Shown in pieces: positions 11,162 to 57,052 of a DNA stretch of 64,000 nt. Position numbers and translations under genes: made by a program. Where the stretch lies: IMG/VR virus record IMGVR_UViG_3300020419_000009, positions 35,400 to 99,399 of that record, one strand, 5' to 3'. The notes under the pieces are model-generated. The model was not told the DNA's origin, made no database searches, and saw nothing but the letters and a program-made list of their open reading frames with translations. Numbering within the stretch: the stretch's first letter is position 1; the number at the start of each line of letters is the position of its first letter. Origin of the DNA: a virus.

Positions 11162-11509
11162 ATGGATAAATCTTTAGACAAAGCCCTTGATTTCTCTAAC
11201 TATATGGTTACGTTTAATAACCAAAAACGCATTATCCATGAAGAATATTTAGAAGATTTGGTAGTGTATCAAAATGGCGGCAAGTTTACTGTAGATAAAG
11301 AGCTAATTTGTTTTGCTAATCATCTAAATGAAAAGGTTGAAACCAAAGTAGTACTGATAGATGACAACAATATACCTGTTGTAATTGAAGACTTGCAAAA
11401 ATTTCTACATGATATTACATCAACATATAGCGAAGCATCTCGAGTATACTATGACAAATATAAAAAAATGATAGACAAGAGAAGTGTGGAAAGTTTAGTT
11501 AATGTCTAA
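11162..11509 (+). CDS. conserved small phage protein, unknown function
   Basis: This 115-residue acidic protein has no Cys-rich or catalytic motif. An AGGAG ribosome site at 11150-11154 sets the ATG. It is the first gene of the long overlapping run and its end overlaps the next gene by 8 bases. Its style (charged, helical, ending in a Lys/Glu-rich segment) resembles small accessory proteins found after fibre genes in T4-like marine phages. No function can be given. Confidence 0.6.
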   Translation: MDKSLDKALDFSNYMVTFNNQKRIIHEEYLEDLVVYQNGGKFTVDKELICFANHLNEKVETKVVLIDDNNIPVVIEDLQKFLHDITSTYSEASRVYYDKYKKMIDKRSVESLVNV

Positions 11510-12335
11510 TGGGGTTTTATTGTTTGCAAATAATAATGGCAAGGTTGATTACTTAAAACAAGCAATTTTTTTGGCTAAGAGAGTAAAAGAATATCTTGGT
11601 GTTCCTGTATCTCTAGCAACCAGCAGTAAAAGAAAGCTAACGTATTCTTATGAAAAGGATATGGATCTTTTTGATAAGATAATTGAGATTCCAGATTCTT
11701 ATGAAAATACAAAACGTTATTACGACGGAACTTTGGACCACCAATACCTTTTGTTTAAAAATTATAGTAGAATAGATAGTTATGATATATCACCTTACAG
11801 TAAAACTCTTGTAATGGATACAGATTACATACTCTGTAACGATGATCTTAAACAAGCATTTACATCGAATACCGATTTTCAAATTTATAAAAAAGGAGTA
11901 GATGTTTGCGGTTGGAGAGAATACAATGAGTTTAATTACATTAATAAAATAGGTATACCTTTTTATTGGGCAACATGTTTTTGTTTCAAAAAAACAGAAA
12001 ATACAAAAATATTTTTTGAATTAATGAAACATTTAGAGAAAAATTGGATTCATTATTCTAAAATATATAATTTAGGAAGTAAAAATTTCAGAAACGATCA
12101 TGTGTTTAGTATTGCAATACATATGATGAACGGATTTGAAGATAGTGACTGGGCAAAAATATTACCCGGTAAGATGTTTTATACGTTAGATAGAGATAAA
12201 ATTTACAAAATTGATAAAGATAAATTAACATTCCTAGTAGAAAAACAAAATAGATCAGGCGAATATACATTAGCCTCTACTAATAAGTCAAATGTGCATG
12301 TTATGAATAAATTCAGTTTGGAAAAATTAATATGA
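11502..12335 (+). CDS. glycosyltransferase-like protein (GT-A fold, DxD)
   Basis: This 277-residue protein has the layout of a nucleotide-diphospho-sugar transferase. It has an N-terminal Rossmann-like strand (GVLLFANNNGK), a variable segment, then VMDTDYILCND, where DTD is the probable metal/nucleotide-sugar DxD. It resembles the following gene in organisation (GKxxYxKQA near the N-terminus, then the DTD strand near residue 105), so the two look like diverged paralogues. The donor sugar and acceptor are unknown. The start overlaps the preceding gene by 8 bases. Confidence 0.6.
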   Translation: MSNGVLLFANNNGKVDYLKQAIFLAKRVKEYLGVPVSLATSSKRKLTYSYEKDMDLFDKIIEIPDSYENTKRYYDGTLDHQYLLFKNYSRIDSYDISPYSKTLVMDTDYILCNDDLKQAFTSNTDFQIYKKGVDVCGWREYNEFNYINKIGIPFYWATCFCFKKTENTKIFFELMKHLEKNWIHYSKIYNLGSKNFRNDHVFSIAIHMMNGFEDSDWAKILPGKMFYTLDRDKIYKIDKDKLTFLVEKQNRSGEYTLASTNKSNVHVMNKFSLEKLI

Positions 12336-13147
12336 AGAAAGGTTATCTATTAATAGCAAGTGGTAAAGAATATGTAAAGCAGGCTTGTTTATGTGCAATG
12401 AGCATCAAAGCCACACAAAAAATAAAAAACGTTTCTTTAGCAACCAATGACTTTGTTCCAAGAAAATATGCATCGTTGTTTGATGAAATTATAGAAATAC
12501 CTTGGGTAGATATGAATTTTGCGGCAACTTCTTATATTGCAGAACAACGATGGAAAGCATTTCATATTACACCGTACGAAGAAACTGTTCTGTTAGATAC
12601 TGATATGATATTTTTAAGCGAGGTTAGTCATTGGTGGAAATACTTGAGCAAACAAGATATATGTTTTACAAATAATGTATTTTCTTATAGAAATCAAAAG
12701 GTTACAAGTGATTTTTATAGAAAAGCGTTTTCAGAAAATAATTTACCTAGTGTGTACTGTGCGTTTCATTATTTTAAACAGAACGATACATGTTTAAAAT
12801 ATTATAAAACATTAGAAAACATTTGTAAAGATTTTGAAAGTTATTATAAGAAATATATTGTAAAATCAAGACCAGAACTATCTAGTATGGATATAAATCA
12901 TGCCCTTGCTTGTTTAATAACAGATACAAATACTAATACATGCGAGTGTTTAAATTTTGTGCATATGAAAAGTAAAGTACAAGATATTGAAAACATATCG
13001 TCTAATTGGTCTGATAGTTTACCTTATTACTTTACTGATGATTTAAAATTAAAAATAGGAAACTATTTACAACATGGAATATTTCATTACACAGAAAACA
13101 AGTTCTGTAATGATGTAATAGCAAAGTATGAAAAGGCAGTACTATGA
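12332..13147 (+). CDS. glycosyltransferase-like protein (GT-A fold, DxD)
   Basis: The 271-residue protein begins with GYLLIASGKEYVKQACLCA and carries VLLDTDMIFLSEV near residue 90, matching the N-terminal strand and DxD of GT8-like and related transferases. Later His residues (LNFVHMKSK, GIFHYTEN) could complete the metal site, as in GT8 enzymes, but that is inference. It overlaps both neighbours by 4 bases (ATGA), so its production is coupled to that of the first transferase. Confidence 0.6.
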   Translation: MKKGYLLIASGKEYVKQACLCAMSIKATQKIKNVSLATNDFVPRKYASLFDEIIEIPWVDMNFAATSYIAEQRWKAFHITPYEETVLLDTDMIFLSEVSHWWKYLSKQDICFTNNVFSYRNQKVTSDFYRKAFSENNLPSVYCAFHYFKQNDTCLKYYKTLENICKDFESYYKKYIVKSRPELSSMDINHALACLITDTNTNTCECLNFVHMKSKVQDIENISSNWSDSLPYYFTDDLKLKIGNYLQHGIFHYTENKFCNDVIAKYEKAVL

Positions 13148-13686
13148 AACACGAAAAAGTTCATACACCACAATATGTATCTTTTGATCAAAAAACAGGA
13201 GAAGTTTTCTGTATTGGGCCAACAATTCAAGAAGGCTACCAATACATAGAAGTTTCTGATGAACAGATTGAACCTATTAAAACATTCAAAGATAAGATGA
13301 CAGACTATAAAGTTGTCTATAACAAAAAAGAAAGAATGTTTAAATTAAAGAAACTTGTAGTTATTGAAGAAGATATTACATACCAAAAAATAGAAAAGTA
13401 TCAAAATGAAGAAATGGATTTTGATGTACTTTTAAACATTGATAAAAACAAGAAATCATGTTATATTGATACAAGCGAAGAATTATTAGATATAATGCAG
13501 AAAACTAACGTGGAACATAAAAATATTACATTTAGTTTTACTAAAAAAGATGATCCACATATTTTATATGATATGGTTACTTTTGAAATAAACAAAAATA
13601 GTAAACAGTCTATAAAAATACCAAAGCAATATGACGTTTATTCTAATAGTGATATGGCAAAATGTATGTACGGAGAAGTTAAATGA
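13144..13686 (+). CDS. hypothetical protein in glycosyltransferase run
   Basis: This 180-residue protein is rich in Lys, Glu, Ile and Asp and has no motif I recognise. It begins with a segment describing an extended N-terminus (VHTPQYVSFDQKTGEVFCIG) and ends MAKCMYGEVK. ATGA overlaps at both ends put it in the operon between two glycosyltransferase-like pairs. It could be a partner or substrate protein for its neighbours; there is no direct evidence. Confidence 0.5.
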   Translation: MKHEKVHTPQYVSFDQKTGEVFCIGPTIQEGYQYIEVSDEQIEPIKTFKDKMTDYKVVYNKKERMFKLKKLVVIEEDITYQKIEKYQNEEMDFDVLLNIDKNKKSCYIDTSEELLDIMQKTNVEHKNITFSFTKKDDPHILYDMVTFEINKNSKQSIKIPKQYDVYSNSDMAKCMYGEVK

Positions 13687-14603
13687 AAGTAAACATAGCA
13701 GAGCTTGATATAATTTACCTAAGTTACGATGAACCCAATGCAGAAAAAAATTATGCAGACTTATTAAGCAAGGTTCCTTGGGCAAAAAGAGTACACGGAG
13801 TAAAAGGTTCAGATGCGGCTCATAAGGCCTGTGCAGAGTTAAGCACAACAGACAGATTTGTAACTGTTGACGGGGACAATACTATCCGACAAGATTTTCT
13901 AAATCAAGCATTAGACTTTGACGAACATACAGATTTAAAAAATAGTGTAATTAGTTGGTGCGGAAAGAATAGCATAAACGGTTTGCTATACGGCAACGGC
14001 GGATTAAAATGTTGGCCAAAAGAATTTGTTCTAAATATGAAAACGCACGAGAATGCTGATCCAGATAATCCTCATGCACAGGTTGATTTTTGTTGGGACG
14101 TACAGTATATACAACAAAATAGCTGTTACTCAGATGTTCATAACAACGAAACTCCACATCAAGCCTGGAGAGCAGGTTTTAGAGAAGGTGTCAAGATGGC
14201 ACTGGATAGAGGAGTAAAACCATCACATGAACAGTTTTTAAAAGGTCATTGGAAAAATTTACATAGGCTTTGGATCTGGTTAATGGTAGGAGCAGATGTA
14301 AAAAACGGTTATTGGGCTATTGCTGGAGCCAGAGAAGGTCTTGCTATGACAATGTTAACAGATTGGGATTATGTAAATGTTAGAGACTTTGTACATTTAA
14401 ATGAAATGTGGGCAGACAGAGATCAAATGCCAGATGATGTTTTACATAACGAAATATTTAATCATGGAACAAACTTAATTAATCAGCTAGGAATACCAAT
14501 TGCTGTACAGCCTCTGAACGAAGAGCAAAGCCAATTTTTTAAAACAGTTTATCAAAATCCTTCAAGAAACAGCGGCGAGCAATTTGTAATAGATGTAGAA
14601 TAA
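13683..14603 (+). CDS. glycosyltransferase-like protein, IxYLSYDEPNAE family
   Basis: This 306-residue protein opens with DIIYLSYDEPNAEKNYADLL and then has RFVTVDGDNTIRQDF near residue 60, a GT2-like DxD context. It shares this architecture with the gene at 15992 (DIIFISYHEPNAEENF and FVVDGDAVIVDDF), so the two are paralogues separated by a radical SAM gene. The C-terminal region contains a long helical stretch with AGAREGLAMTM, paralleled by AGATAGMEFGL in the second copy. Role in glycan assembly is inferred. Confidence 0.6.
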   Translation: MKVNIAELDIIYLSYDEPNAEKNYADLLSKVPWAKRVHGVKGSDAAHKACAELSTTDRFVTVDGDNTIRQDFLNQALDFDEHTDLKNSVISWCGKNSINGLLYGNGGLKCWPKEFVLNMKTHENADPDNPHAQVDFCWDVQYIQQNSCYSDVHNNETPHQAWRAGFREGVKMALDRGVKPSHEQFLKGHWKNLHRLWIWLMVGADVKNGYWAIAGAREGLAMTMLTDWDYVNVRDFVHLNEMWADRDQMPDDVLHNEIFNHGTNLINQLGIPIAVQPLNEEQSQFFKTVYQNPSRNSGEQFVIDVE

Positions 14604-14604
14604 T

Positions 14605-15999
14605 ATGGTAGAACAATTTAAATGGGAAGAACCTGAAAAAGTTTTAGAAAAACTTAATTCGGCAGGTTGTGGATTTTGTCTTGCGAAATGGACGCAGGTG
14701 ACCATGCATCTTGGATCAGGACTAACACAAAGTTGTCACCACGTAAAAGCTCATCCTATAGATTTAAATGACCTTGCATCAAATCCAAGTGTGTTACATA
14801 ACACAGGGTTCAAGAAGAATATAAGAAAACAAATGTTAAACGGAGAACGTCCAGCTGAATGTGATTACTGTTGGCGTATCGAAGATAATACTGGTATGTA
14901 TAGTGATAGGACATGGAAAAGTAGAGATCCGTTTAGTTGGCCACATGTAGACACGATTCAAAATCTTACAGGAAATGAAGACTTTTATCCTACATACGTT
15001 GAAGTAAGTTTTAGTAATGTGTGTAATTTCAAATGTGGATATTGTGGGCCTGCTTTTAGTAGTAAATGGACTGACGAAATTAATGAACACGGTCCTTATT
15101 TTTTTGGTGGAATAAATTGGAGATATAATCAACCAGATGAGTATCAAAAACAAATTCCTAATCGTGAACATAATCCGTACATCGAAGCTTTCTGGAAATG
15201 GTTTCCAGAAGCAGTTAAACACATGCATACATTTAGGATTACAGGCGGAGAGCCATTAATGAGTAAACATACTACAAAGGTGATGGATTATCTAATGGAC
15301 AATCCACAACCTAATTTAGAATTATCTATCAATAGCAATGCATGTCCTCCTGGTAACAACTGGAAAGAATTTGTTGACAAAGTTAAAGTGTTAGAAGATA
15401 AAAAATGTATTAAGCAGTTTATTCTTTTTGTAAGTGCAGAGGGTATGGGTGCTCAACAAGAATACAATAGGTTTGGAATGAACTGGGAAGTCTTTACAAA
15501 AAACGTTGAATATTTTTTAAAAACAACAAATGGTATGTGTAGTTTTATGAGTGCATTCAATGTTTTAAGTATTCCAAGTTTCTTTGATTTTATAAAGTAT
15601 GTATCAGGTCTTAAAGATATATATTGGTTTAGAAAAAGCAATCACCAGAGAGTAATAATAGATACGCCATATGTAAGAAGTCCAGGATTTTTAGATGCTA
15701 AGATTGCCACACATGATTTAGTAAAAAAATACCTATATCCTTGTGTACCGTTTATGCAAAAAAATAGATTCTCTGAAAGAGAAGTACAAAAGATGGATAG
15801 GATAGTAAAAGATTTAGACGTTAGAAACAGTAAACCAGAGGAGTTTGAAAGAGAAGCTATTGAAGGAAGACGTATGTTTTATCAGTGGATCGAACAGTAT
15901 GATAAAAGGCGCGGTACTGACTTTTTAAAAACTTTTCCGCAAATGAAAAAATTTTACGATGAATGCTTAGAATGTAAGAGGCTTGCAGATAATGTATGA
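14605..15999 (+). CDS. radical SAM protein with N-terminal twitch-like domain
   Basis: The 464-residue protein has a Cys-bearing N-terminal domain (C22, C25, C44, and CDYC around 86-89) like the N-terminal twitch domain that can hold an extra Fe-S cluster. The radical SAM core follows, with C140-x3-C144-x2-C147 for the [4Fe-4S] cluster and FRITGGEPLM as the SAM-binding GGEP motif. The same two-part plan occurs at 21235 and 23821. It lies between the two IxYLSYDEPNAE-type transferases and overlaps the second by 8 bases. The substrate is unknown. Confidence 0.85.
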   Translation: MVEQFKWEEPEKVLEKLNSAGCGFCLAKWTQVTMHLGSGLTQSCHHVKAHPIDLNDLASNPSVLHNTGFKKNIRKQMLNGERPAECDYCWRIEDNTGMYSDRTWKSRDPFSWPHVDTIQNLTGNEDFYPTYVEVSFSNVCNFKCGYCGPAFSSKWTDEINEHGPYFFGGINWRYNQPDEYQKQIPNREHNPYIEAFWKWFPEAVKHMHTFRITGGEPLMSKHTTKVMDYLMDNPQPNLELSINSNACPPGNNWKEFVDKVKVLEDKKCIKQFILFVSAEGMGAQQEYNRFGMNWEVFTKNVEYFLKTTNGMCSFMSAFNVLSIPSFFDFIKYVSGLKDIYWFRKSNHQRVIIDTPYVRSPGFLDAKIATHDLVKKYLYPCVPFMQKNRFSEREVQKMDRIVKDLDVRNSKPEEFEREAIEGRRMFYQWIEQYDKRRGTDFLKTFPQMKKFYDECLECKRLADNV

Positions 16000-16678
16000 T
16001 ATAATTTTTATAAGTTACCATGAACCAAATGCAGAAGAAAATTTTACAAATCTTAACGATAGGTTTAACAGTATAGGTTTGTATGGAGAAAGAGTAAAGC
16101 GTGTAAAAAATGTTAAAGGTATACATAATGCTCATGTAGAAGGAGCAAAACTAGCCAGTACTAGTTATTTTTTTGTTGTAGACGGAGATGCTGTTATTGT
16201 TGATGATTTTGATTTCGATTATGTAACCAAAGATAAAGATATGGTACATGTTTATAGATGTATGAATCCTATAAATGATTTAGTATACGGATATGGCGGT
16301 GTTAAACTACTCCCAACCTGGCTAGTAAGAAATATGGATACAACTACAAACGATATGACAACTAGTATATCAAAAAATTTTAAAGTGCTTAATAAGATAT
16401 CAAATATTACTGCATTTAACACAGACCCGTTTAATACTTGGAAAAGTGCTTTTCGAGAATGTGCAAAATTATCAAGTAAAACTATAGATAGGCAAAAACA
16501 AGGAGAAACAGATGAAAGACTTAAAACTTGGACAACCGTGGGACAAGATAGACAGTATGGCGAATATGCTTTGGCAGGTGCTACCGCTGGTATGGAGTTT
16601 GGCCTTTCTAGCGGGTCTGATCTGGGGTTAATAAATAATTTTGAATGGTTAAAGGAACAGTTTAATGGAAACACATAA
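15992..16678 (+). CDS. glycosyltransferase-like protein, second copy of IxYLSYDEPNAE family
   Basis: This is a shorter paralogue (228 residues) of the gene at 13683. It keeps DIIFISYHEPNAEENF at the start and FFVVDGDAVIVDDF as the DxD strand but has a reduced C-terminal region. The ATG at 15992 overlaps the preceding stop and is preferred over an upstream TTG at 15983. Its 3' end overlaps the next gene by 14 bases. Duplication around a radical SAM gene suggests that the two transferases act on related substrates. Confidence 0.58.
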   Translation: MYDIIFISYHEPNAEENFTNLNDRFNSIGLYGERVKRVKNVKGIHNAHVEGAKLASTSYFFVVDGDAVIVDDFDFDYVTKDKDMVHVYRCMNPINDLVYGYGGVKLLPTWLVRNMDTTTNDMTTSISKNFKVLNKISNITAFNTDPFNTWKSAFRECAKLSSKTIDRQKQGETDERLKTWTTVGQDRQYGEYALAGATAGMEFGLSSGSDLGLINNFEWLKEQFNGNT

Positions 16679-17501
16679 ACTATTGGATAGATTTGAATTA
16701 CTGTATCCTTTGAACAGTAAATTAGCTGACTTGCGTAGAGCTTTTATAGATAAGGACCTACATAGTGTATTCAGGTTAATTACAGATAATAATAAAGAAG
16801 ATTTACGTAAAATAATATTAGAAGATAATAAATGGAGTCTATGGAAGATATTAGATTCAATGCTACAAACAAGACTTATACAATCATTAAAATCATTTGA
16901 AATCAATAAACTAGACATTGATGAAGATTGTTTAAGCCAAGGACAAATTAAAAGTAAATTATGGCTTTTAAAGGAATTACAAAATACAAAACTTGATTTA
17001 GGAACTGTGTTTATCTGTGCAGGGTGGTATGGAACTTTAGCTACAATGCTTTTTGAAAGTAAAATAAACATTGACAAGATAAGAAGTTTTGATATTGATA
17101 ATTCTTGTAAAAAGATTGCTGAAATTTTCAATAAACCCTGGGTAATAGAGGATTGGAAATTTAAACCAGTCACACAAGATATACATGATATAAACTTTGA
17201 TTCACATACCTATACTGTGACTAGGAATGATAGTACAGAATGTTCAATGACTGATTCACCAGATACAATTATAAACACTAGCTGTGAACACATTGACAAC
17301 TTTACAGAATGGTATGCAAAAATACCTAAAGGCAAACTAGTAGTTCTGCAAAATAATAATTTTTTCGAACTCAACGAACACGTAAATTGTGTTAACGACT
17401 TGGATGATTTTGCGTGCCAAACACCATTATCGAAAATACTATATGAAGGTGAATTAAAATTAGAAAAGTATACAAGATATATGAGAATAGGAGTAAAGTA
17501 A
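16665..17501 (+). CDS. class I SAM-dependent methyltransferase-like protein
   Basis: In this 278-residue protein the C-terminal two-thirds have the class I methyltransferase pattern. A motif I-like strand and loop (VFICAGWYGTLATMLF, around residues 117-132) is followed by an acidic strand end (IRSFDIDNSCKK) and later DTIINTSCEHID plus KLVVLQNNN. The N-terminal ~100 residues are helical and charged. Motif I is not the usual GxGxG, so the assignment rests on overall layout. The next gene starts directly after the stop. Confidence 0.55.
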   Translation: METHKLLDRFELLYPLNSKLADLRRAFIDKDLHSVFRLITDNNKEDLRKIILEDNKWSLWKILDSMLQTRLIQSLKSFEINKLDIDEDCLSQGQIKSKLWLLKELQNTKLDLGTVFICAGWYGTLATMLFESKINIDKIRSFDIDNSCKKIAEIFNKPWVIEDWKFKPVTQDIHDINFDSHTYTVTRNDSTECSMTDSPDTIINTSCEHIDNFTEWYAKIPKGKLVVLQNNNFFELNEHVNCVNDLDDFACQTPLSKILYEGELKLEKYTRYMRIGVK

Positions 17502-18047
17502 ATGCAAAAAGTGATACATGATACATACGTATCTAAAATAGTGCATGATCTTGATAAAAATATTCTGATTAAAACACTCAAAAGAAGAGATATTGAACGA
17601 CAATGGTTTGACCTTTATCAGAAACTACAAGAAAAAACTCCTAATGTTGTAAAAATATTTGATATGATAGATAAACGTACCTACACGATGGAATATTTAG
17701 AACACGTAATTGACAACTTTGATGACTTTACAAAACCACATAGGGCATTTCCTCCTGAAAAAAAGTTTACTAAGTTAGACTTTGTAAGACTTCATAAGTG
17801 TATATACGGCGTGTGGACATCAGCATTAGAATTAAGTGTAGATTTACCAGATCACCAGTTTTTTATAAACAATGATGCCAAGTTAGCTAATATATGCATA
17901 CTCAAACATAAGAGCGGATATCAATTCAAGTATATAGATGCAGATGGATGGTCAAGAACTAACGGTTATCATGGAATGGATTGTTATTACCAAACACAAT
18001 TAAAAATAGCATTACAAATGCAGAGGCTTTTAGTTCCTAATGTATAG
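17502..18047 (+). CDS. minimal kinase-fold protein (APH/protein-kinase-like)
   Basis: Only 181 residues long, yet the landmarks of the kinase fold are in order. These are a beta3-like Lys strand (NILIKTLKRRD), a helix with Glu, a hinge-like segment (YTMEYLEHV), a catalytic-loop match in NNDAKLANI (D-x4-N) and a DFG-equivalent in YIDADGW. This is the order seen in aminoglycoside/choline-type phosphotransferases (GDLHxGN then IDxxD), which are normally 250-300 residues. A glycine-rich loop is not obvious. It probably phosphorylates a small molecule or glycan; the substrate is unknown. Confidence 0.5.
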   Translation: MQKVIHDTYVSKIVHDLDKNILIKTLKRRDIERQWFDLYQKLQEKTPNVVKIFDMIDKRTYTMEYLEHVIDNFDDFTKPHRAFPPEKKFTKLDFVRLHKCIYGVWTSALELSVDLPDHQFFINNDAKLANICILKHKSGYQFKYIDADGWSRTNGYHGMDCYYQTQLKIALQMQRLLVPNV

Positions 18048-26571: not shown

Positions 26572-26589
26572 TCAAAAAGGTGTTATAAT
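26561..26589 (+). promoter_or_regulatory. sigma-70-like promoter TTGCAA-N17-TATAAT
   Basis: TTGCAA at 26561-26566 and TATAAT at 26584-26589 are separated by 17 bases. The next gene's ATG begins at 26595, so the predicted transcript start falls at or near the ATG. The message would then be nearly leaderless. Confidence 0.5.
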
Positions 26590-26594
26590 ATATT

Positions 26595-28410: not shown

Positions 28411-28454
28411 AGTATAATATTTAGTTTAAATACTTTACTGTGGAGAATAATAAA

Positions 28455-29923: not shown

Positions 29924-29924
29924 A

Positions 29925-31488: not shown

Positions 31489-32987
31489 GAACTATCTCAA
31501 GTGTTTATCACGATTGGGTACCATACCCTGTTGGGTGCCTTATATCTCACTGTCAAAAAAATCCTAAAATTAAAAAAGAATACAAATTTTTAGAACCTAT
31601 ATACAAAAATAAATGGGACACTCCTGAGCTACATGAAAAATTAAAACAGACAGATATACTAGGACTTACCTGTTATGTTTGGAATCAAAATGCTAATGAT
31701 GAAATAGCACAATTATTTAAAAAATATAATCCTAAAGGCTTTGTAGTATACGGTGGACCAAACGTACCAGAAGAAAATTTAAATGAATTTAAACGTAATT
31801 ATGTTGATCATTACATGACTGGTCCTGGAGAGTTGAAATGGGAAAAACTTTTAGACCCTGAAAGTAAAAGCGAATATGCAATACCTACACCATATACAGA
31901 TGGAATATTTGATAATATATTAGAAAAAGAAAATGACATAGCTGTTGCTTTTGAAACAAATAGAGGTTGTCCTTATCATTGTGCATTTTGTGATTGGGGC
32001 GGAGTAAGTAGAAGTAAAATTACAAAGCTAAAAGATACAGCAGTTAAGGAAACAATAGAACATATTTTAAGTTTTGATAAAGTCAAAAGATTAGAAATCT
32101 TAGATGCCAATTATGGTATATTTCCAAGAGATGTAGACTTTGTACATCATATTGTTGATAATAAAAAACGAGATGATATGTTACTTACTTTTGCCGGATT
32201 TGCAAAAAACGGATCTCCTTATTTGCCTGAAATAATGAATCTGACAATGGACAATTTTAATGACAAATTACGAAATGTAAAAATAAGTTTACAAACCCTT
32301 ACACCTGATGTACTAGATACCATTCAAAGAAAAAATATTTCTACAGATAAGTTACTAAGAATTATGGATCAATTACGAGATATCAAAGTAAATTCTGAAC
32401 TTATAATAGGATTGCCAGGTGAAACGGCAGATAGTTGGGCAGATACTTTATTTAAACATCCTGAGTTAGGAATTGACTTTGCTAGAGCATATCCTCTATA
32501 TGTTTTGCCTAATACTCCTATGGCAACAGAAGAATATAGACAACAGCACAAAATAAAAACTAAAAAAATTACACTGCCTAATAAAGAAACGTTTGAAATG
32601 ATATACGAGTGTAGTAGTTATGACTTAGAAGAAATAACACAAATATATTTAAACTGGTGGTACTTTAATACTTTTTATAATTTTGGAATAGATAAAACAA
32701 TAACAAAAGATACAATGAAACAATTTTTTAAAAATTTAAATAATACCCCGTTTATGAGTTGTTGTGTTGAAGAAGTAAGAAATGCATTGTATAGGATATT
32801 CAAACCAGAAGATAACTTACTTTTAGAAGGATTTGATTATAGTTTTTTACATAAACAATTAGGTAGAGGAAAAGAATTATTGTATATGAAAAAACACAAT
32901 AAACAAGTACAGGAAGAACTTGGAATTAAATTCGAAATAAAAAATGAAGATAGAGAATTAGGGAGCGCCTTTGCGTATATAAAATGA
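31467..32987 (+). CDS. B12-binding-like radical SAM enzyme
   Basis: This 506-residue protein has an N-terminal Rossmann-like region (TDILGLTCYVWNQN, GFVVYGGPNV, YMTGPGELKWEKLL), the pattern of cobalamin-binding B12-radical SAM proteins, although a DxHxxG cofactor motif is not evident. The core has C168-x3-C172-x2-C175 in NRGCPYHCAFCDWGG and LIIGLPGETADSW near the core's end. Class B enzymes often methylate unactivated carbons or rearrange rings. It overlaps the aminotransferase-like gene by 22 bases, hinting at a joint step. Confidence 0.78.
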   Translation: MSRTVLLGTISSVYHDWVPYPVGCLISHCQKNPKIKKEYKFLEPIYKNKWDTPELHEKLKQTDILGLTCYVWNQNANDEIAQLFKKYNPKGFVVYGGPNVPEENLNEFKRNYVDHYMTGPGELKWEKLLDPESKSEYAIPTPYTDGIFDNILEKENDIAVAFETNRGCPYHCAFCDWGGVSRSKITKLKDTAVKETIEHILSFDKVKRLEILDANYGIFPRDVDFVHHIVDNKKRDDMLLTFAGFAKNGSPYLPEIMNLTMDNFNDKLRNVKISLQTLTPDVLDTIQRKNISTDKLLRIMDQLRDIKVNSELIIGLPGETADSWADTLFKHPELGIDFARAYPLYVLPNTPMATEEYRQQHKIKTKKITLPNKETFEMIYECSSYDLEEITQIYLNWWYFNTFYNFGIDKTITKDTMKQFFKNLNNTPFMSCCVEEVRNALYRIFKPEDNLLLEGFDYSFLHKQLGRGKELLYMKKHNKQVQEELGIKFEIKNEDRELGSAFAYIK

Positions 32988-33649
32988 AAGACATAATTTT
33001 TACACCGTTAGCTATACCTCCTATACCTAATAAAGAAAAGATCCTTAATAGGTTTAATGCACCAGACTTTTACATCTGGTGGGACGAGGAAACATTATTA
33101 GGCGAAAAGAAAAATAACAATCCATTAGGAAATCCACAACAATGGACAGATAAAGCAAAAGAAAATTATCCTGAACTTATAGATTGGATAGAAACATACA
33201 TTCCTTGTGACGACTTTTACTATATCCGTATAGCAAGAGCCAAGCATGAAATTCCTCCACATATTGATGGTAATGCTGTTAAGCCAACACATGAACATCA
33301 TTTAGCTATAATGCCTGAAACACTAGAATATAATATGGAACACGAACCTATAGGATACCGTTTTGTTGTTTCAGGAAGTAAAAATAAAATGTATATGTGC
33401 AAGGAGTATGACTATACAAAAGATATGACCTGGCAAGAAAAACATAGATGTATTGTACCAGACGAAACAGATGCTTTTTTGATACGTAATCAAGATCAAG
33501 CACACGGTGTTGAAGCTGATACTGAAGATAGATTAATAGGCTTTATACTAGGAAAAGTTAATGCCAGGAGGCATTGGAACCTAATAGAAAAAAGCGTAAG
33601 TAAGTATAGCGATAAAGTAATAAGGAAACAAGATGTATTCAATGCATGA
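32984..33649 (+). CDS. 2OG-Fe(II) oxygenase, Asp/Asn hydroxylase-like
   Basis: This 221-residue protein has PPHIDG (HxD) and a distal NQDQAHGVEADTEDRLIGFIL (His, then Arg for 2OG). Between them a strand-rich segment (GYRFVVSGSKNKMYM) fits the jelly-roll core. ATGA overlap with the preceding radical SAM gene indicates coupling. Its end overlaps the next gene by 17 bases. Confidence 0.68.
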   Translation: MKDIIFTPLAIPPIPNKEKILNRFNAPDFYIWWDEETLLGEKKNNNPLGNPQQWTDKAKENYPELIDWIETYIPCDDFYYIRIARAKHEIPPHIDGNAVKPTHEHHLAIMPETLEYNMEHEPIGYRFVVSGSKNKMYMCKEYDYTKDMTWQEKHRCIVPDETDAFLIRNQDQAHGVEADTEDRLIGFILGKVNARRHWNLIEKSVSKYSDKVIRKQDVFNA

Positions 33650-34235
33650 TGGTGCTAATATAAGTGTGCACCAAGAAATTGCACAGAGATTAAATCCAAA
33701 GACATGTGTAGAAATTGGTGCATACTATGGCGGTATTACTTACAAACTATGTAAACTATTACCACAAAGCCATTTTTTTGCAATCCAGGCATACCATGAT
33801 CACAAATTAAATCATATGCCTGATACGCCTAGAGGAGAATATAGTGTAGGTAGTGCAGAAGGTTCTATAGATCCTGATTTAAAAGATAAAGACTGGAAAC
33901 GTTCTGTAGTAAGACATTTTCCTAAAGAGTATCATGATTATTTTGATTTCAACTTACTTGTAAAAACATTCCAAGATACAGATAATGTGTCTATACTTTT
34001 AGACACAAGTCCGTTGAAATATGATTGGAAATTAGGTTTTGATCTTGCTATATTTGACGTATCTCCCTTGTTTGAAGAAAATGTAAAACAATTTAACTAT
34101 TGGTGTAAGTATGGCAATAACAGTAGTCATATATTGATGGGTGCATATACCCATCAAGAAGAATTTTATCAATATGTAGATAAAAGATATAAGGCTGAAA
34201 AAATAAGGGATGATTATGTTCTCGTGTGCATATGA
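33633..34235 (+). CDS. class I SAM methyltransferase-like protein
   Basis: In this 200-residue protein CVEIGAYYGGITYKLCKLLP is a convincing motif I (ExGxxxGxxT) of methyltransferases of the Methyltransf_24/FkbM kind, followed by a strand (SHFFAIQAY), which may contact SAM, and LAIFDVSPLF as the motif II/post-I strand. The ATG at 33633 is placed by AAGG at 33621-33624. The target is unknown; FkbM-like relatives often O-methylate sugars. Confidence 0.58.
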   Translation: MYSMHDGANISVHQEIAQRLNPKTCVEIGAYYGGITYKLCKLLPQSHFFAIQAYHDHKLNHMPDTPRGEYSVGSAEGSIDPDLKDKDWKRSVVRHFPKEYHDYFDFNLLVKTFQDTDNVSILLDTSPLKYDWKLGFDLAIFDVSPLFEENVKQFNYWCKYGNNSSHILMGAYTHQEEFYQYVDKRYKAEKIRDDYVLVCI

Positions 34236-34881
34236 GATTAATTTAGATATTTCACAAGTTCGTGAAGAATTAAAGCATTTGAATAATCCTACGTTTAAAC
34301 GTGCAGGATATGATGACATGTGTTTTTATGTTTCTGATAAAACAATTAAAGACCAAGGCTGTGATGCTGTAATTAAATTTAAAAAGGATCTTGGTGATCC
34401 TTTTGTTGAAGGTGTTAGGTTTTTAAATATGTATCCTAAGTCATATTATCTCCCTCATTGTGATAGTAATGAGCAAGGCTTTCATGAAGATATACCCATG
34501 GATGTGCTACATCCAGGTAACGTAAACATATTACTCAGTGAACCTGTAGAAGATACAACTATATGGTATATTGATCCTGACCTAAGAAAACTATGGCCTT
34601 GGGGATTCTCTCCCAAAGGCGTTTTGTATCCCGGAGATATAAATCCTAACATTACGAAAGAGTCTATGGGCCATGATTATAGTAATCTTGTAGAAGTTGA
34701 TAGATTTAAATTACAGGATAAAGCTACATTATTCAATAGTGGAGTCAATCATCATATAGTAAGCGAAGATAAAGAAAATCCAAGAGCAAGTGCGTGTTTT
34801 GTATTTTGGCCCTATAATACATGGCAAGGTATCGTAGAAGCAATGAAGTTAAAAGGTTTATTAAATGACCGCGTGGAATAA
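34216..34881 (+). CDS. 2OG-Fe(II) oxygenase-like protein
   Basis: The second of two in-frame ATGs (34210, 34216) has better spacing from the AAGGG at 34205-34209. The protein (221 residues) has YLPHCDSN (HxD) and NSGVNHHIVSED...ASACFVFW with the distal His and following strand. It resembles 36543 (HxD followed by a Pro-rich loop and distal GVFHSAEN), so the two may be diverged copies. Confidence 0.62.
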   Translation: MFSCAYEINLDISQVREELKHLNNPTFKRAGYDDMCFYVSDKTIKDQGCDAVIKFKKDLGDPFVEGVRFLNMYPKSYYLPHCDSNEQGFHEDIPMDVLHPGNVNILLSEPVEDTTIWYIDPDLRKLWPWGFSPKGVLYPGDINPNITKESMGHDYSNLVEVDRFKLQDKATLFNSGVNHHIVSEDKENPRASACFVFWPYNTWQGIVEAMKLKGLLNDRVE

Positions 34882-35392
34882 AGAAAAACTTTTTATCCAC
34901 ATACCTAAAACTGCTGGACGAAGTGTTACAGTATCAATGGGAAAGGTAAACATAAAACCACATGCTCCTATTTCAGACCCTAGCTTACCTAAATTACCAA
35001 GTTTTACAGTTGTAAGAAATCCGTATGAACGAGCAGTAAGTTGGTGGAAATATTCTAAAGAATTTGGTATAGATGTAGGATTTTTGGAATATCTTTATAT
35101 GTATTTTAATAAACCTTGGCCTAATTGGCAGGAACAGTTTCAAGAATATACTACTACTACTTCAGACTTTCATTTAGGAGAATTCAAACCTAGCATTCCT
35201 ATGATAGATTATATATCTATAGACGGAAAGGTCTGTGTTGATAATATTATTAGATTAGAAGATAATACTATTCAAGAACGAAAAAACGTTAGCAAATTCC
35301 AAGTAAATACTAGAGAGATACTTACACCGGAGGCTAAGAATGTAATTGAACACTATTATGGTGTTGACTTAGAAAGATTTAATTATGCATAA
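34865..35392 (+). CDS. PAPS-dependent sulfotransferase-like protein
   Basis: The 175-residue protein starts FIHIPKTAGRSV, the 5'-phosphosulfate loop of Golgi/bacterial carbohydrate sulfotransferases (PKTAG at 14-18). It has VVRNPYERAVSWW at 49-61, the 3'-phosphate-binding motif with R51 and S59. A later IDNIIRLEDN-like strand also fits. It is shorter than most members (200-300 residues), so the acceptor-binding part is minimal. It probably moves sulfate from host PAPS onto a sugar or hydroxyl; no PAPS-making gene is visible here. Confidence 0.75.
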   Translation: MTAWNKEKLFIHIPKTAGRSVTVSMGKVNIKPHAPISDPSLPKLPSFTVVRNPYERAVSWWKYSKEFGIDVGFLEYLYMYFNKPWPNWQEQFQEYTTTTSDFHLGEFKPSIPMIDYISIDGKVCVDNIIRLEDNTIQERKNVSKFQVNTREILTPEAKNVIEHYYGVDLERFNYA

Positions 35393-35999
35393 AAAAACTT
35401 TACCCAGTATACACAATTTTAAACTAGATATTGACTTAAAAAAGCTACAACAAGCAACAGATACACTTGCAGAAAAGTTTGTAGATGTTAAAACAGCTAA
35501 TCCAATGTTATGCGACAATCACATGGAGTTAGTTGCTCATGTGTACGATAATTTTGAACAAATAAACTTAACTACCCCTAGTGAGATATTACCTTATACG
35601 ACTAGCATAAAAGAAAGATTAAAACGTAAAGAAGAACATTTATATAATGTTCCTACAGAAGATTATAAAAATAGCTACTTTGAACAAGTAGTTACGCAAC
35701 TCAAATCACCTGCAAGTAGGATTAGAATAACTAAATTAGCACCAGGAAAAAATATTCCATTTCATGTGGATTATGACGTAAGTTATGCTGTAAGATGTAT
35801 TGTTCCTATCTACGGCGACAAACAGGTTATTAATTTATTCAAACGCGAAGATAAACTTGAAGCATATAATTTAGAAAATGGCAATGCTTATTTCCTAAAC
35901 ATAGGATATCCACATGCTGTGGTTAACATGAGTAACAAACCACGAATTGCATTGATGTTTAGTTTAAATGGAACGGATGACTTGGATGGATTGGTATAA
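35385..35999 (+). CDS. 2OG-Fe(II) oxygenase, Asp/Asn hydroxylase-like
   Basis: The 204-residue protein has a clear core. PGKNIPFHVDYDVSYAVRCI gives the HxD and strand, and NGNAYFLNIGYPHAVVN plus RIALMF give the distal His and Arg. Helical N-terminal ~100 residues precede the core. It overlaps the sulfotransferase by 8 bases and the next oxygenase by 32 bases. Confidence 0.72.
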   Translation: MHKKTLPSIHNFKLDIDLKKLQQATDTLAEKFVDVKTANPMLCDNHMELVAHVYDNFEQINLTTPSEILPYTTSIKERLKRKEEHLYNVPTEDYKNSYFEQVVTQLKSPASRIRITKLAPGKNIPFHVDYDVSYAVRCIVPIYGDKQVINLFKREDKLEAYNLENGNAYFLNIGYPHAVVNMSNKPRIALMFSLNGTDDLDGLV

Positions 36000-36546
36000 A
36001 TTAGATATTCCGGTGACTACCCAATATATAGACTTAGCAAAAAAATGTTATGAATTAGAAGGTAGGTATGGACAGAATGAAGATTTATTAAGTCCATTTA
36101 GAAATCTTCCTATTGATATAGTTACATATAAGTTTAGAGTAATGAATGATATAGAAGAAATTCATCCGCATAAAGATCGCAATAATGGGCAATATAACTT
36201 TGATGGAGAAGTTATAGGAGCAATTCAAGTACCAATTGAAAATCCTACCTATGCAGAAACTACTTGGTGGAACGCAGATAAAGATATAGATGACGGCTGG
36301 CATTTTTACAAAGGTAATGCTAAATCATTATTTGATAAAGATCCAAATTTTGTACCTGAAGGATTTACTAAAAAAAGCACAATGATAATGGATAACAAGT
36401 GTGCTTTGATACGTATAGATGGATGGCATTCAGTACGAAGATTAAATGAGGGAAGAAGACTTATTTTATCATTAATTATTGATCCAAAGTATACATGGAA
36501 TGAAATTACAAGTAGGCTTATGCCGTTAGTAGAGGAGAGAATATGA
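35968..36546 (+). CDS. 2OG-Fe(II) oxygenase-like protein
   Basis: This 192-residue protein has EIHPHKDRN (HxD) and IDGWHSVRRLNEGRRLILSLI (distal His and Arg). Three in-frame ATGs (35968, 35977, 35986) are possible; the longest form is given, while the shorter ones reduce the 32-base overlap with the preceding gene. Substrate unknown. Confidence 0.66.
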   Translation: MERMTWMDWYKLDIPVTTQYIDLAKKCYELEGRYGQNEDLLSPFRNLPIDIVTYKFRVMNDIEEIHPHKDRNNGQYNFDGEVIGAIQVPIENPTYAETTWWNADKDIDDGWHFYKGNAKSLFDKDPNFVPEGFTKKSTMIMDNKCALIRIDGWHSVRRLNEGRRLILSLIIDPKYTWNEITSRLMPLVEERI

Positions 36547-37124
36547 AGTGTTGTTACGAATTAAATATTGAAATAAGTGATGCGTATAAGGAACGAGTAA
36601 AAGAAATTTATGACTTGTGCAAAGATGATGCAAAGAAAGATGTTGCACCAGATTGTATGCGGAAAGAGTTTCCGGAATTATGGGCACCTATTGAACCAGT
36701 AGCTGATTGGTTTTCACCTGTAGTAAGAATGTTATATGAACCTCCGGGACAAAAAGTTGTAAAGCATATTGATCTAAATGCACATGCACAATATGGTGAT
36801 GCAGGAAGATACATAATTTGTCCAGGTGCTTTAAATATTCCTTGCTTCAAACCCATTGGAGATATTACTAAATGGTGGCGACAAAAAAATCCTGAATTTA
36901 TTCATCCATATGATTTTTGGAAGGGAAAAGATCATGACATGGTAGAAATAGATTCATTTGAAATAACAACTAAGCCTGTTATGCTACGTACAGGAGTATT
37001 TCATAGTGCTGAAAATAACGGTAGTGAAAATAGATTAATGGTTAGTTTTTTTACTCATTGGACTGTTGATTGGGATACTATTATTGACGTGATGTCTTCC
37101 AACGGACTCTTACTTCCTCGTTAG
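36543..37124 (+). CDS. 2OG-Fe(II) oxygenase-like protein
   Basis: In this 193-residue protein VVKHIDLNAH gives HxD and RTGVFHSAENNGSENRLMVSFF gives the distal His and Arg. It is the last gene of the long plus-strand run. Its final 44 bases overlap the end of the convergent oxygenase gene on the minus strand. No terminator hairpin is visible at the junction. Confidence 0.68.
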   Translation: MKCCYELNIEISDAYKERVKEIYDLCKDDAKKDVAPDCMRKEFPELWAPIEPVADWFSPVVRMLYEPPGQKVVKHIDLNAHAQYGDAGRYIICPGALNIPCFKPIGDITKWWRQKNPEFIHPYDFWKGKDHDMVEIDSFEITTKPVMLRTGVFHSAENNGSENRLMVSFFTHWTVDWDTIIDVMSSNGLLLPR

Positions 37125-37611
37125 CAAAAGGCCAACCACTTATATTAATTCTACTTCCTGTACACGGTTCAACCCAATGATCAAAACCTGTATTCATGAT
37201 TACAAGTCTGTTTCTTTTAGGAAGTATAGTCATGTCTTCTGTACATAAAGAACCGTCAATTTCGTCTGTCATATAAAGCATCCACACCCAATTACCATAT
37301 ACAGCAGGATCTTCTTTGTGTTTTCCTATATGACTTGATGGAGTAAACTTTTTAGCAAATAGTTGTAATGGCTCTAAATCTATGTACGGAACAGGCTCAC
37401 CTATGTATTTAGAAACCTTATGCAATAATTCTAACCTATCATAACTTTTTCGTATGTCATTTTTTACAATTTGCCATTCGTATTCAGAATAGTCTCCTAC
37501 GTGAGAACCAGTATCACTATCTAATTGTTTTAATTCCCCTTCACAAAGTTTATCAAGTTTTTTGAGATAGTCTTCCTCAAAGACGTCATCAACTACTATA
37601 ACCGTTTTCAC
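37081..37611 (-). CDS. 2OG-Fe(II) oxygenase, prolyl-4-hydroxylase-like
   Basis: The 176-residue protein (GTG start) has a P4H-type order. A helical start is followed by the segment HIGKHKEDP, where the iron motif appears to read HxE, then MLYMTDEIDGSLC (a typical P4H strand-turn) and IMNTGFDHWVEPCTGSRINIS (distal His, Arg). P4H-like phage proteins may hydroxylate proteins or free amino acids. It is the last gene of the minus-strand fibre/oxygenase run. Confidence 0.62.
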   Translation of the reverse strand: MKTVIVVDDVFEEDYLKKLDKLCEGELKQLDSDTGSHVGDYSEYEWQIVKNDIRKSYDRLELLHKVSKYIGEPVPYIDLEPLQLFAKKFTPSSHIGKHKEDPAVYGNWVWMLYMTDEIDGSLCTEDMTILPKRNRLVIMNTGFDHWVEPCTGSRINISGWPFANEEVRVRWKTSRQ

Positions 37612-38341
37612 GAGTCCAATCCTTCCAAGTTAGGTTAGTATCTTCTAACCACTGATTATTATGATCTTGTCCTTTACTGTTAGGACCATTAATACTAGCA
37701 ACAGCATGTAGTCTTACACTTTTACATGGTGTTACAGAATGTGCTTTTGCTGTATTTAAAATGAATGCTTCTCCGGGTTTTCTAAACACACTTCCGTCAC
37801 AAGATTCAATACTACTAGTGACACCTTCTCCGTCGTTTAGTAGAACATGATGATATCTAAAACCTGTATCTCCGTCAGTGTGCCATTCAAACTCACAATC
37901 GTGTTCCATATAACTGAACCAATAATTGTTACGCAAATAAGGTATCTTGTTAGATAGTTCTGAAAAATATTTACTTCCTAATTTTTTAAAGTCTTTATGA
38001 AAAAACGCATAGATGTTTAATCCTTTATAGTCTCCTAATCTTGCGTTTTCTTTTTTCATGTTGATATAATATAGTACACCGGATTCGTATTGAGTTTCTT
38101 TCACATAGTCTAGCCAGTTGTGTTCATCTTTTATATCAAATCCTCTAAGACTATTGTATACTTCTCTTTTACTTACAAGTTCATCTGGCCTTTCTAAATA
38201 AACATTCAAGTAAGTTTGGTATCCAAACTCTAAGTCAGGCCATATTTCATCGGTCATGTTGTAAAATAATTGTGTTAATTCTTTAGTATTACTTACAGGG
38301 TCGCAATGAATAAATCCTTCTTTCATATGTTGATCAAACAT
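37589..38341 (-). CDS. 2OG-Fe(II) oxygenase-like protein
   Basis: This 250-residue protein has EWHTDGD (HxD) and NTAKAHSVTPCKSVRLHAVA (distal His and Arg). A GAGGAG at 38350-38355 (minus strand) sets the ATG. It has a longer N-terminal region (~120 residues) than its neighbours. It overlaps the downstream oxygenase gene by 23 bases and the upstream one by 19 bases, so three oxygenases are strung together. Confidence 0.68.
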   Translation of the reverse strand: MFDQHMKEGFIHCDPVSNTKELTQLFYNMTDEIWPDLEFGYQTYLNVYLERPDELVSKREVYNSLRGFDIKDEHNWLDYVKETQYESGVLYYINMKKENARLGDYKGLNIYAFFHKDFKKLGSKYFSELSNKIPYLRNNYWFSYMEHDCEFEWHTDGDTGFRYHHVLLNDGEGVTSSIESCDGSVFRKPGEAFILNTAKAHSVTPCKSVRLHAVASINGPNSKGQDHNNQWLEDTNLTWKDWTRENGYSS

Positions 38342-38784
38342 TTATGTAACTCCTCTATTGGTTCTGCAAAGCAGATTTGAAAATTGTATCTTGGATGTTC
38401 ATTATTGTTTATATAATGCGGTATTTGTGTATTAAATAATATAGGACTTTCATGTGTAACCTTAATACCATCGTTAAAATAACAAGGAGCATATTCTTCA
38501 TGCCAAAATAAAGGCACAATTAAAACTGTATTTCTATTCCATTTATTGTTATCTGTATGCTCTATTACTTTTGCATTGGCTTCTTGATGCACAAACATAG
38601 TATAACATTCATAGTTAAATCTTTTGAAATATGGCAGATCCATATCCCAACATAAATTTCCATCATGTTTTCCGCTTATTGTATCGTATGCAATAAAATT
38701 TGCTTCTGGAGATTTGCAAAGCCCTTCTAGAAACGTTACGTCTTCTTTGGATATTAAATTTGTTTTTTCAAAATAAGGAATCAC
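38323..38784 (-). CDS. compact 2OG-Fe(II) oxygenase-like protein
   Basis: At 153 residues this is the smallest of the set. It still has VIEHTDNNKW (HxD), a central strand pair and FNTQIPHYINNNEHPRYNFQI (distal His and Arg). The start is GTG within a GTGA overlap with the preceding gene's stop. It could represent the bare catalytic core of the family. Confidence 0.62.
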   Translation of the reverse strand: MIPYFEKTNLISKEDVTFLEGLCKSPEANFIAYDTISGKHDGNLCWDMDLPYFKRFNYECYTMFVHQEANAKVIEHTDNNKWNRNTVLIVPLFWHEEYAPCYFNDGIKVTHESPILFNTQIPHYINNNEHPRYNFQICFAEPIEELHKCLINI

Positions 38785-39428
38785 AATGAAATCCTTTTAC
38801 GCCATTCAATCACACTCTCCTCGCATGTGGTAATATTACAAACCAACCATATGCTATCTATTGCACTAGCATTGAACAACCAATGTCTTTTATTTGTGTT
38901 TAGGTAGTACATTCTTCCTAGTTCCCATTGTAACGGAAAATAGTTTTGATCGTCTCCGTACATCCAACAAAAGTCCGGAGGATTAACGTTTTGTAAAGGA
39001 AATACAATTCTAAAAGATGTAGGTATACGAAAAGTTCCACCATCGATATGAGGAGGAAAATGTCCTCCCTGCGGTAATCTAATAAATTGTGTTCTGTTCA
39101 ACCAAGGCTTCCAACATTTTAACATATCTTGTAGTATAGGACTGTTATCGTATACTGTAGTAAAGTGTTTAAAATCTTCTTCGTAAAGATTTTTTCCAGT
39201 TGCTTTTGTAATATCTTTTAAACTACCAAAGTTTATAGGATCGTTAGTTCCATCAAAACTTGTTACTGCTAATGCATCTCTTTTTATTTCTGGCTTGTAT
39301 GGATTATATTTTTGCCAGAGGTTGTCAAATTGCTTTATCTCTTGTAAAAGTTCAAAGGGCTTTACTTTATAATCACAACTTAAAAAGTCACCATATAATT
39401 GCATTTGACTATATAGAGTCCAACTCAT
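38781..39428 (-). CDS. 2OG-Fe(II) oxygenase, Asp/Asn hydroxylase-like
   Basis: The 215-residue protein has FPPHIDGG (HxD), SFRIVFPLQN as the second strand, and YLNTNKRHWLFNASAIDSIWLV with the distal His. The usual Arg that binds 2OG is not evident after the distal His. The PPHxDG context matches 28455 and 32984, grouping these three. It overlaps the SDR-like gene by 20 bases. Confidence 0.66.
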   Translation of the reverse strand: MSWTLYSQMQLYGDFLSCDYKVKPFELLQEIKQFDNLWQKYNPYKPEIKRDALAVTSFDGTNDPINFGSLKDITKATGKNLYEEDFKHFTTVYDNSPILQDMLKCWKPWLNRTQFIRLPQGGHFPPHIDGGTFRIPTSFRIVFPLQNVNPPDFCWMYGDDQNYFPLQWELGRMYYLNTNKRHWLFNASAIDSIWLVCNITTCEESVIEWRKRISL

Positions 39429-57050: not shown

Positions 57051-57052
57051 CT

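Follow-up and report, generated by a model that had tools for sequence, protein, structure and literature searches.

A fixed radical SAM and glycosyltransferase core with exchangeable modules between tail-fibre genes of T4-like marine viruses suggests an undescribed pathway, probably of surface decoration

Does a dense run of biosynthetic-looking genes lying between two sets of tail-fibre genes in a virus form one pathway, and what would such a pathway modify? The question is raised by a window of 64 kb (the whole stretch analysed) that forms part of a 99.4-kb viral record, IMG/VR IMGVR_UViG_3300020419_000009. An earlier note, made from the letters alone, had described at 11502–39428 an island rich in radical S-adenosylmethionine (SAM) enzymes, 2-oxoglutarate (2OG) oxygenases and glycosyltransferase (GT)-like proteins, and had proposed that it builds or decorates a glycan or peptide, perhaps on the fibres or the host surface. 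The open reading frames (ORFs) were present as listed and the island is real, with limits that lie further out, at about 11162–40884. To its left lies a plus-strand fibre set (4776–11125), to its right the minus-strand fibre 40917, which carries an Mtd_N domain. The near-universal gene overlap was borne out, with overlaps at 30 of the 34 same-strand junctions and 68 uncovered bases within 11502–39428 (27.9 kb). A gp20-type portal within the record (L089; PF07230, E 1e-108) assigned the virus to the T4 superfamily, and its nearest relatives, at about 48–51%, were portals of jumbo T4-like phages (for example GAP32 and Atu_ph07).

The recurrence of the island was examined in the best 80 of at least 200 IMG/VR relatives of the radical SAM gene 21235, taken with their flanks (genes are named by their lower window coordinate). 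In this sample 21235 is present by construction, and the loci form 44 clusters at 95% identity, a clustering that reduces but does not remove redundancy. The viral records are mostly fragments, and relatives were read in pieces. The core order was constant, 13683-15983-16665-18040-(19113)-21235-(22634)-26595, where brackets mark semi-core genes, and the order and strand of 13 reference genes were kept in 1357 of 1358 pairs. Gene 18040 occurred in 78 loci, 16665 in 72, 15983 in 68, 22634 in 49 and 19113 in 48; 26595 was found in 50, many loci stopping short of it. The order fibre-11162-GT-GT-13683 was also constant in the viral loci and in G001, a 256-kb relative. Between the core genes radical SAM ORFs come and go, averaging 9.5 per 21-kb locus; at 40% identity they fell into 110 families, 66 of them present in two loci or fewer. 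To the left and right of the island G001 and this genome are collinear; the G001 island spans 54 kb, and mainly the core is shared between the two. Other large relatives contained 8 to 19 radical SAM matches each. In many marine T4-like viruses the cluster measures 30–55 kb and occupies one fixed site between two tail-fibre gene sets.

The half at 29925–40884, comprising TauD, aminotransferase-like, cobalamin radical SAM, 2OG, sulfotransferase and desaturase genes, behaves as a second module, its order being kept in about eight further contigs and in one more partially. In a distant T4-like record (L182, portal 47% identical), many of these genes recur in a different arrangement, accompanied by 26595 (62%). 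Two gene orders with one content indicate a shared function.

A counterpart was identified in bacteria by scanning GTDB, whose genomes are here mostly metagenome-assembled, with the 21235 family. The core genes cluster on Bdellovibrionota contigs, where 20 loci (some of them overlapping views of one place) encode 26595 in 18 cases, 21235 in 17, 18040 in 14, 13683/15983 in 10 and 16665 in 8. These clusters have varied orders and strands and added GT2 enzymes, and PP-loop and aminotransferase-like genes lie nearby; the PP-loop protein of one cluster (L102) matched QueC at 3.8e-6. Orthologues of 26595 were present in 17 of 291 Bdellovibrionota genomes. The single case among 398 Pseudomonadota genomes lay on a contig with a T4 portal, a misbinned phage, which leaves 0 of 397. 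The Bdellovibrionota cluster is chromosomal, because in G018 its contig also carries rpoB, at a distance of 31 kb, and the cluster of G070 sits on a contig of 1.62 Mb. All five Bdellovibrionota carriers of a close cobalamin radical SAM gene were among the 17 with 26595 (hypergeometric 4e-7). In the 26595 tree phages and bacteria were separate, the bacteria on deeper branches, with modest support; a tree of 18040, in which two rows carried imperfect labels (L154 is bacterial), was set aside. One Bdellovibrionales genome (G027, C21:127060-139512, L151) shows the phage order: directly after pheT lies the core, then a fibre-like gene, 11162, two GTs and 13683.

Hits in three bins were not counted as bacterial: L106 (MED685, Gammaproteobacteria bin) and L111 (NAT137, Chloroflexi bin) have the radical SAM core and a T4 portal on one contig and are misbinned phages, and the Rickettsiales bin L105 has a portal on another contig. 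Bdellovibrionota were considered as phage hosts on the basis of the common core; this is not claimed, because identities of 38–67% fit old gene exchange equally. As another host clue, tRNA genes were looked at, with none in this record and two in G001.

The genes therefore form a unit, and one that chance falls far short of explaining, since dozens of contigs repeat both its order and its content. The synteny comparison that the earlier note had called for thus came out in its favour, in the 80 viral loci, the rearranged distant phage and the Bdellovibrionota chromosomes; the refuting pattern that the note had named, homologues occurring singly with no co-occurrence, did not hold.

The enzyme families were then assigned with profiles and folds. 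The motif CxxxCxxC is present in all ten proteins previously called radical SAM; nine match Pfam Radical_SAM (E 3e-5 to 2e-13, six above the cut-off), and 20162 is recognised only through NCBIfam NF033640 (N_Twi_rSAM). Three proteins, 14605, 21235 and 23821, exceed the 170-bit cut-off of that model. Most radical SAM matches in the island are to twitch/SPASM peptide maturase models, and 21235 resembles SkfB. By its sequence, 31467 resembles TokK and CysS, yet it is not filed as KedN5 (NF033712, 156 bits over part of the model against a cut-off of 700). Against the prokaryotic viperin model (NF038283, cut-off 180), 22634 scored 52 bits and 26595 only 41. The twelve 2OG oxygenases of the earlier note divide into four firm cases (29925, 35385, 38781, 28440), six probable ones (34210, 35968, 36543, 37081, 37589, 38323), which have profile links of 50–100% or a weak Pfam hit, and two, 29213 and 32984, that show the motif alone. 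A loose HxD..H..R pattern matched most island proteins, and shuffled sequences at a rate of 0.42. Because it does not discriminate, it was dropped and profile–profile comparison was used.

The four DxD glycosyltransferase-like proteins of the earlier note were only partly upheld. Gene 13683 combines a confident model, GT-A fold matches and a conserved DxD, its nearest solved folds in Foldseek being the PBCV-1 capsid GT (2p73, prob 1.00), SunS, TarP and RmlT. Gene 15983 is its homologue, and 11502 and 12332 show the DxD motif only. The methyltransferase 16665 is established by its fold, the sugar-acting NodS being among its matches, and a second candidate, 33633, was left unconfirmed. The kinase-like call for 17502 found no Pfam or PHROG match. 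The aminotransferase-like 30727 and the PP-loop ATPase 25868 fall just below their cut-offs, the sulfotransferase 34865, TauD 29925 and AspH 35385 passed their Pfam cut-offs, and a nitroreductase (27706) and a desaturase (40282) had been overlooked.

These results suggest that the island is a real but undescribed pathway, and it probably decorates a surface. Our leading reading, which we hold tentatively and at somewhat less than an even chance, is that of a phage-borne cluster with a fixed core and exchangeable modules for a soluble glycoconjugate pathway, acting most likely on virion fibres. The fixed core would consist of the GT-A glycosyltransferases 13683 and 15983, the class I methyltransferase 16665 and the radical SAM enzymes 18040, 21235 and 26595. 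The exchangeable tailoring modules would be the extra twitch/SPASM radical SAM enzymes and the 2OG/TauD/cobalamin radical SAM/aminotransferase/sulfotransferase/desaturase set. The acceptor would be soluble and the site of action cytoplasmic: the glycosyltransferases would move sugars from nucleotide sugars onto this acceptor, after which the radical SAM, methyl, sulfo and 2OG enzymes would alter either the sugar or the residue that carries it. Because of the constant contact with fibre genes, the likeliest acceptor would be the fibre proteins of the phage itself, a proposal that we also make with reserve and at less than even confidence. Each phage would then display fibres with their own chemistry, swapped as cassettes together with the fibre tips, and the benefit may lie in host binding or in hiding from host or rival factors. 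The GT-A and methyltransferase folds, the nucleotide-sugar genes and the fibre-side location favour decoration, and of what the earlier note had proposed, decoration of fibres or a surface fits them best; the target molecule is something we infer.

Several points weigh against this reading. The Foldseek TM-scores (template modelling scores) of 13683 are only about 0.3 over its full length, and the sequence names no substrate for the radical SAM enzymes. The B12 radical SAM, TauD and aminotransferase genes would suit a small molecule equally well. A phage-type fibre-like gene occurs in only 1 of 291 Bdellovibrionota genomes, so the core can do without it. G+C falls at the G027 cluster, whose arrangement is possibly a recent transfer or a chimeric assembly.

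If the favoured reading of fibre decoration is true, phages would diversify their receptor-binding surfaces chemically and not by sequence alone. In any case, the islands are a large unexplored source of radical SAM chemistry, in viruses for which no cultured member was found among the records searched. Fibre-side islands of marine T4-like phages were formerly read as glycosyltransferases plus assorted metabolic genes; the constant-order core, the roughly 110 radical SAM families in 80 loci and the Bdellovibrionota counterpart turn them into a defined, testable pathway. A wider and more doubtful proposal is that T4-like marine phages and Bdellovibrionota share, through ancient exchange, a pathway dedicated to decorating fibres or a surface. 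In it a fixed GT/methyltransferase/radical SAM core would be combined with swappable radical SAM/2OG cassettes, so that each phage lineage would have its own fibre chemistry, and this would amount to combinatorial chemical diversification of a virion. Phage-like adhesive fibres have been described on Bdellovibrio (PMC10769870); given these fibres, a decoration pathway common to phages and Bdellovibrio would be attractive but is unproven.

Other products were weighed. During infection the enzymes might modify a glycan on the surface of the host cell (O-antigen or capsule) and so block superinfection, as the pelagimyophage account proposes for the glycosyltransferases of the host recognition cluster (HRC; PMC7029224). 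The sulfotransferase, the UDP-sugar dehydrogenase and epimerase genes and the GT2 enzymes of the bacterial clusters agree with this. By hydropathy, however, membrane-like proteins number 1 of 38 here (the desaturase) and 2 of 57 in G001, against 55 of 134 on a bacterial control contig; flippase and polymerase are therefore lacking, and no lipid-linked or membrane-bound initiating transferase was seen. This solubility favours a cytoplasmic acceptor and disfavours full assembly of a host-surface polysaccharide, although soluble enzymes could edit host precursors, and we regard a host glycan as an unlikely product. A diffusible small molecule, an antimetabolite or antibiotic-like compound directed at rivals, predators or host functions, is also unlikely in our estimate. 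It would account for the closeness of 31467 to the natural-product C-methylases TokK and CysS, for TauD, aminotransferase, nitroreductase and PP-loop genes typical of such clusters, and for the presence of the kit in bacterial chromosomes, but Pfam scans showed no scaffold-building enzyme (nonribosomal peptide synthetase, polyketide synthase or terpene), the glycosyltransferases belong to the core, and the site is fixed between fibre genes.

Pathways of DNA modification are known to include radical SAM, 2OG, QueC-like PP-loop and GT genes, all of which are represented here, so hypermodification of phage DNA against restriction was considered. It appears highly improbable: a thymidylate synthase family gene, a source of hydroxymethylpyrimidine, was found in 1 of 17 related records (most being fragments), the core occurs in bacterial chromosomes without phage genes, and the island tracks fibres. 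The twitch/SPASM maturase matches and the likeness of 21235 to SkfB would suit a classical cluster for ribosomally synthesised and post-translationally modified peptides, with the radical SAM/SPASM enzymes acting on a short precursor encoded in the island; the 68 uncovered bases are too few to hold a small precursor gene of its own, and we consider such a cluster very improbable. A larger protein (11162, 13144 or the fibres) could nevertheless serve as the peptide substrate, which would merge this explanation with fibre decoration. Finally, unrelated auxiliary genes may simply be stored at a recombination-prone site, in keeping with the high turnover of accessory genes and with the hypervariability of this site in T4-like phages (PMC7029224). 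The constant core order, the ordered 2OG half, the joint presence of the genes, differently ordered, in a distant phage and in bacteria, and the confinement of all five cobalamin radical SAM genomes to the 17 with 26595 make this very unlikely.

The kind of island is already known, since there are precedents in pelagimyophages, a TARA genome, Campylobacter phages and Mosig, so the earlier remark that no described pathway has this set understated what exists; in these papers, the search covering open-access literature, we met no description of the conserved core, of the division into two modules or of the Bdellovibrionota counterpart. The pelagimyophage HRC combines tail fibres and glycosyltransferases in a hypervariable island of T4-like marine phages, and radical SAM gene cassettes distinguish two relatives (PMC7029224). 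The present locus likewise joins a hypervariable island to fibre genes, glycosyltransferases and radical SAM cassettes. The account, as far as read, describes no conserved radical SAM/GT/methyltransferase core, 2OG module or bacterial link. The HRC lies between VrlC and gp14; here the left flank encodes giant virion proteins, the right flank encodes replication genes (HNH endonuclease, AAA ATPase, DNA polymerase; gp14 was not specifically sought), and the portal is nearest to jumbo T4-like phages. The Pelagibacter phage Mosig EXVC030M (MT647606), a cultured phage of HTCC1062, has at about 54.7–72.5 kb an island between fibre genes and VrlC with Asp_Arg_Hydrox, TauD, nitroreductase, three MoaA-like radical SAM, aminotransferase, fatty-acid desaturase and methyltransferase genes, but 18040 and 16665 reach only 21–27% identity and 21235, 26595 and 13683 have no match. 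The 11–12 radical SAM proteins of Campylobacter phages CP220 and CPt10 belong to an interchangeable module (PMC2853527) that also has nucleotide-diphospho-sugar transferases and an amidinotransferase; identity to 18040 is 23%, and core orthologues were not found there. The T4-like environmental genome TARA_ERS488813_N000010, with 12 radical SAM genes interpreted as Fe-S metabolism (PMC5332604), probably represents this type of virus and island, although no pathway, core or bacterial counterpart is given in that account.

The Bdellovibrionota clusters (L096-L108, L114) are alike in uniting 18040, 21235, 26595, 13683/15983 and 16665, some also having the cobalamin radical SAM, AspH, TauD and desaturase genes (L097), and they differ in order and strand, identity, extra GT2 enzymes and the usual lack of a fibre gene. 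Capsid glycosylation in chlorovirus PBCV-1, where viral GT-A and methyl enzymes decorate a virion protein and the GT is a top fold match of 13683, is a likeness in manner of working only. To our knowledge, no radical SAM tailoring accompanies it. Among 50,697 phage records, the island DNA had no match, and tblastn with 21235, 26595, 18040, 13683, 16665, 11162 and 10211 gave weak matches or none. In jumbo Vibrio phages K566/K567 (L093, about 161.5–166 kb), three adjacent radical SAM genes, 20% to 21235, lie near a PagP-like lipid A gene.

The features are collected in Table 1. The constant companion of the fibre gene, 11162, may be an assembly factor or a modification partner.

Table 1. Island genes and neighbouring features, in window coordinates (AF2, AlphaFold2; pLDDT, predicted local distance difference test; PAPS, 3'-phosphoadenosine-5'-phosphosulfate)
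Position	Strand	Assignment	Evidence
8718..10196	+	Tail fibre / virion structural protein, left flank	PHROG tail fibre and virion structural matches; G001 orthologue in same place, 48%
10211..11125	+	Fibre-like protein, last of left fibre set	No Pfam or PHROG match, called by position and composition; syntenic in viral loci; homologue next to the core on one Bdellovibrionales contig
11162..11509	+	Small conserved protein, always after fibre gene	Syntenic in 15/80 loci and G001; in G027 between fibre-like gene and GTs
11502..12335	+	GT8-like	DxD motif (DTD) only; syntenic
12332..13147	+	GT8-like	DxD motif (DTD) only; syntenic
13144..13686	+	Protein with weak tail-fibre similarity	phrog_1801 E 0.008
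13683..14603	+	Core GT-A fold glycosyltransferase	AF2 pLDDT 92; Foldseek matches
14605..15999	+	Accessory radical SAM, N_Twi_rSAM	NF033640 311 bits, cut-off 170
15983..16678	+	Core GT-A family, 13683 homologue	About 33% to 13683 (alignment); 68/80 loci
16665..17501	+	Core class I SAM methyltransferase fold	AF2 pLDDT 94.6; Foldseek NodS, CFA synthase, others prob 1.00
17502..18047	+	Kinase-like in earlier note, unsupported	No Pfam or PHROG match
18040..19116	+	Core radical SAM	Pfam E 2e-5; 78/80 loci; Bdellovibrionota orthologues 43–48%
19113..20165	+	Semi-core radical SAM	Pfam E 3e-5; 48/80 loci
20162..21238	+	Accessory radical SAM	NF033640 E 9e-11, below cut-off
21235..22644	+	Core twitch-domain radical SAM (N_Twi_rSAM)	NF033640 421 bits, cut-off 170; at least 200 viral relatives
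22634..23824	+	Semi-core radical SAM, viperin/MoaA-like	Pfam E 2e-13; viperin model 52 bits, cut-off 180
23821..24930	+	Accessory radical SAM, N_Twi_rSAM	NF033640 187 bits, cut-off 170
24915..25871	+	Radical SAM/SPASM	Pfam Radical_SAM and SPASM above cut-off
25868..26557	+	PP-loop ATPase, QueC-like	QueC E 5e-4, just below cut-off
26595..27713	+	Core radical SAM, among most conserved island genes	Pfam E 4e-13; orthologues in 17/291 Bdellovibrionota
27706..28410	-	Nitroreductase family	PF00881 above cut-off
28440..29213	+	AspH-like 2OG oxygenase	Profile match 97.5–100% to 35385 and 38781
29213..29923	+	Claimed 2OG oxygenase, unproven	No profile link
29925..30749	+	TauD/TfdA dioxygenase	PF02668 E 1e-20
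30727..31488	+	Aminotransferase-like, short	PF00155 E 0.025, below cut-off
31467..32987	+	Cobalamin-type radical SAM, TokK/CysS/KedN5-like	TokK 7kdx E 3e-51; NF033712 156 bits, cut-off 700
32984..33649	+	Claimed 2OG oxygenase, unproven	No profile link >11%; syntenic, 70–93% identity
33633..34235	+	Methyltransferase-like in earlier note, unconfirmed	No Pfam match; syntenic
34210..34881	+	Probable 2OG oxygenase	Profile 100% to 36543, itself 74% to AspH 35385
34865..35392	+	PAPS sulfotransferase	PF03567 above cut-off; PHROG galactose-3-O-sulfotransferase
35385..35999	+	Aspartyl/asparaginyl beta-hydroxylase-like 2OG	PF05118 above cut-off
35968..36546	+	Probable 2OG oxygenase	Profile 92–96% to 34210 and 36543
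36543..37124	+	Probable 2OG oxygenase	Profile 74% to 35385
37081..37611	-	Probable 2OG oxygenase	PF13640 E 4e-4, below cut-off
37589..38341	-	Probable 2OG oxygenase	Profile 50% to 35385
38323..38784	-	Probable 2OG oxygenase	Profile 72% to 38781
38781..39428	-	AspH-like 2OG oxygenase	PF05118 22.5 bits, cut-off 22.6; profile 98% to 35385
39409..40358	-	Two small proteins of 2OG half, 39409 and 39855	Syntenic at 53–77%
40282..40884	-	Fatty-acid-desaturase fold enzyme, sole membrane-like island protein	PF00487 above cut-off; hydropathy
40917..42062	-	Right-hand fibre with Mtd_N domain	PF18454 E 2e-10
59907..61551	-	Nucleotide-sugar epimerase 59907 and UDP-glucose/GDP-mannose dehydrogenase 60619, outside island	PF01370 in G000; PF00984 E 4e-22

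At the right-hand border, the fibre at 40917-42062 and its G001 counterpart (G001:C1:192762-194738) have about the first 43 residues in common (65%, the Mtd_N region), and the remainder is wholly different, an exchanged fibre tip adjoining the island. Near the DNA polymerase (window 54499-61551) lie a GT1-like protein (54499), the epimerase 59907 and the UDP-sugar dehydrogenase 60619; 54499 and 59907 have orthologues near the G001 polymerase, and further nucleotide-sugar genes were found in the G001 island. That island also encodes a 15983-type GT inside an 854-residue protein without any Pfam match (L167:15720-18284), an amidinotransferase/arginine-deiminase-like protein (L167:12245-13303; PF02274 E 1e-4, below cut-off; compare CP220 gp086) and a TctA-family membrane transporter (L169:7613-8902, G001:C1:187613-188902).

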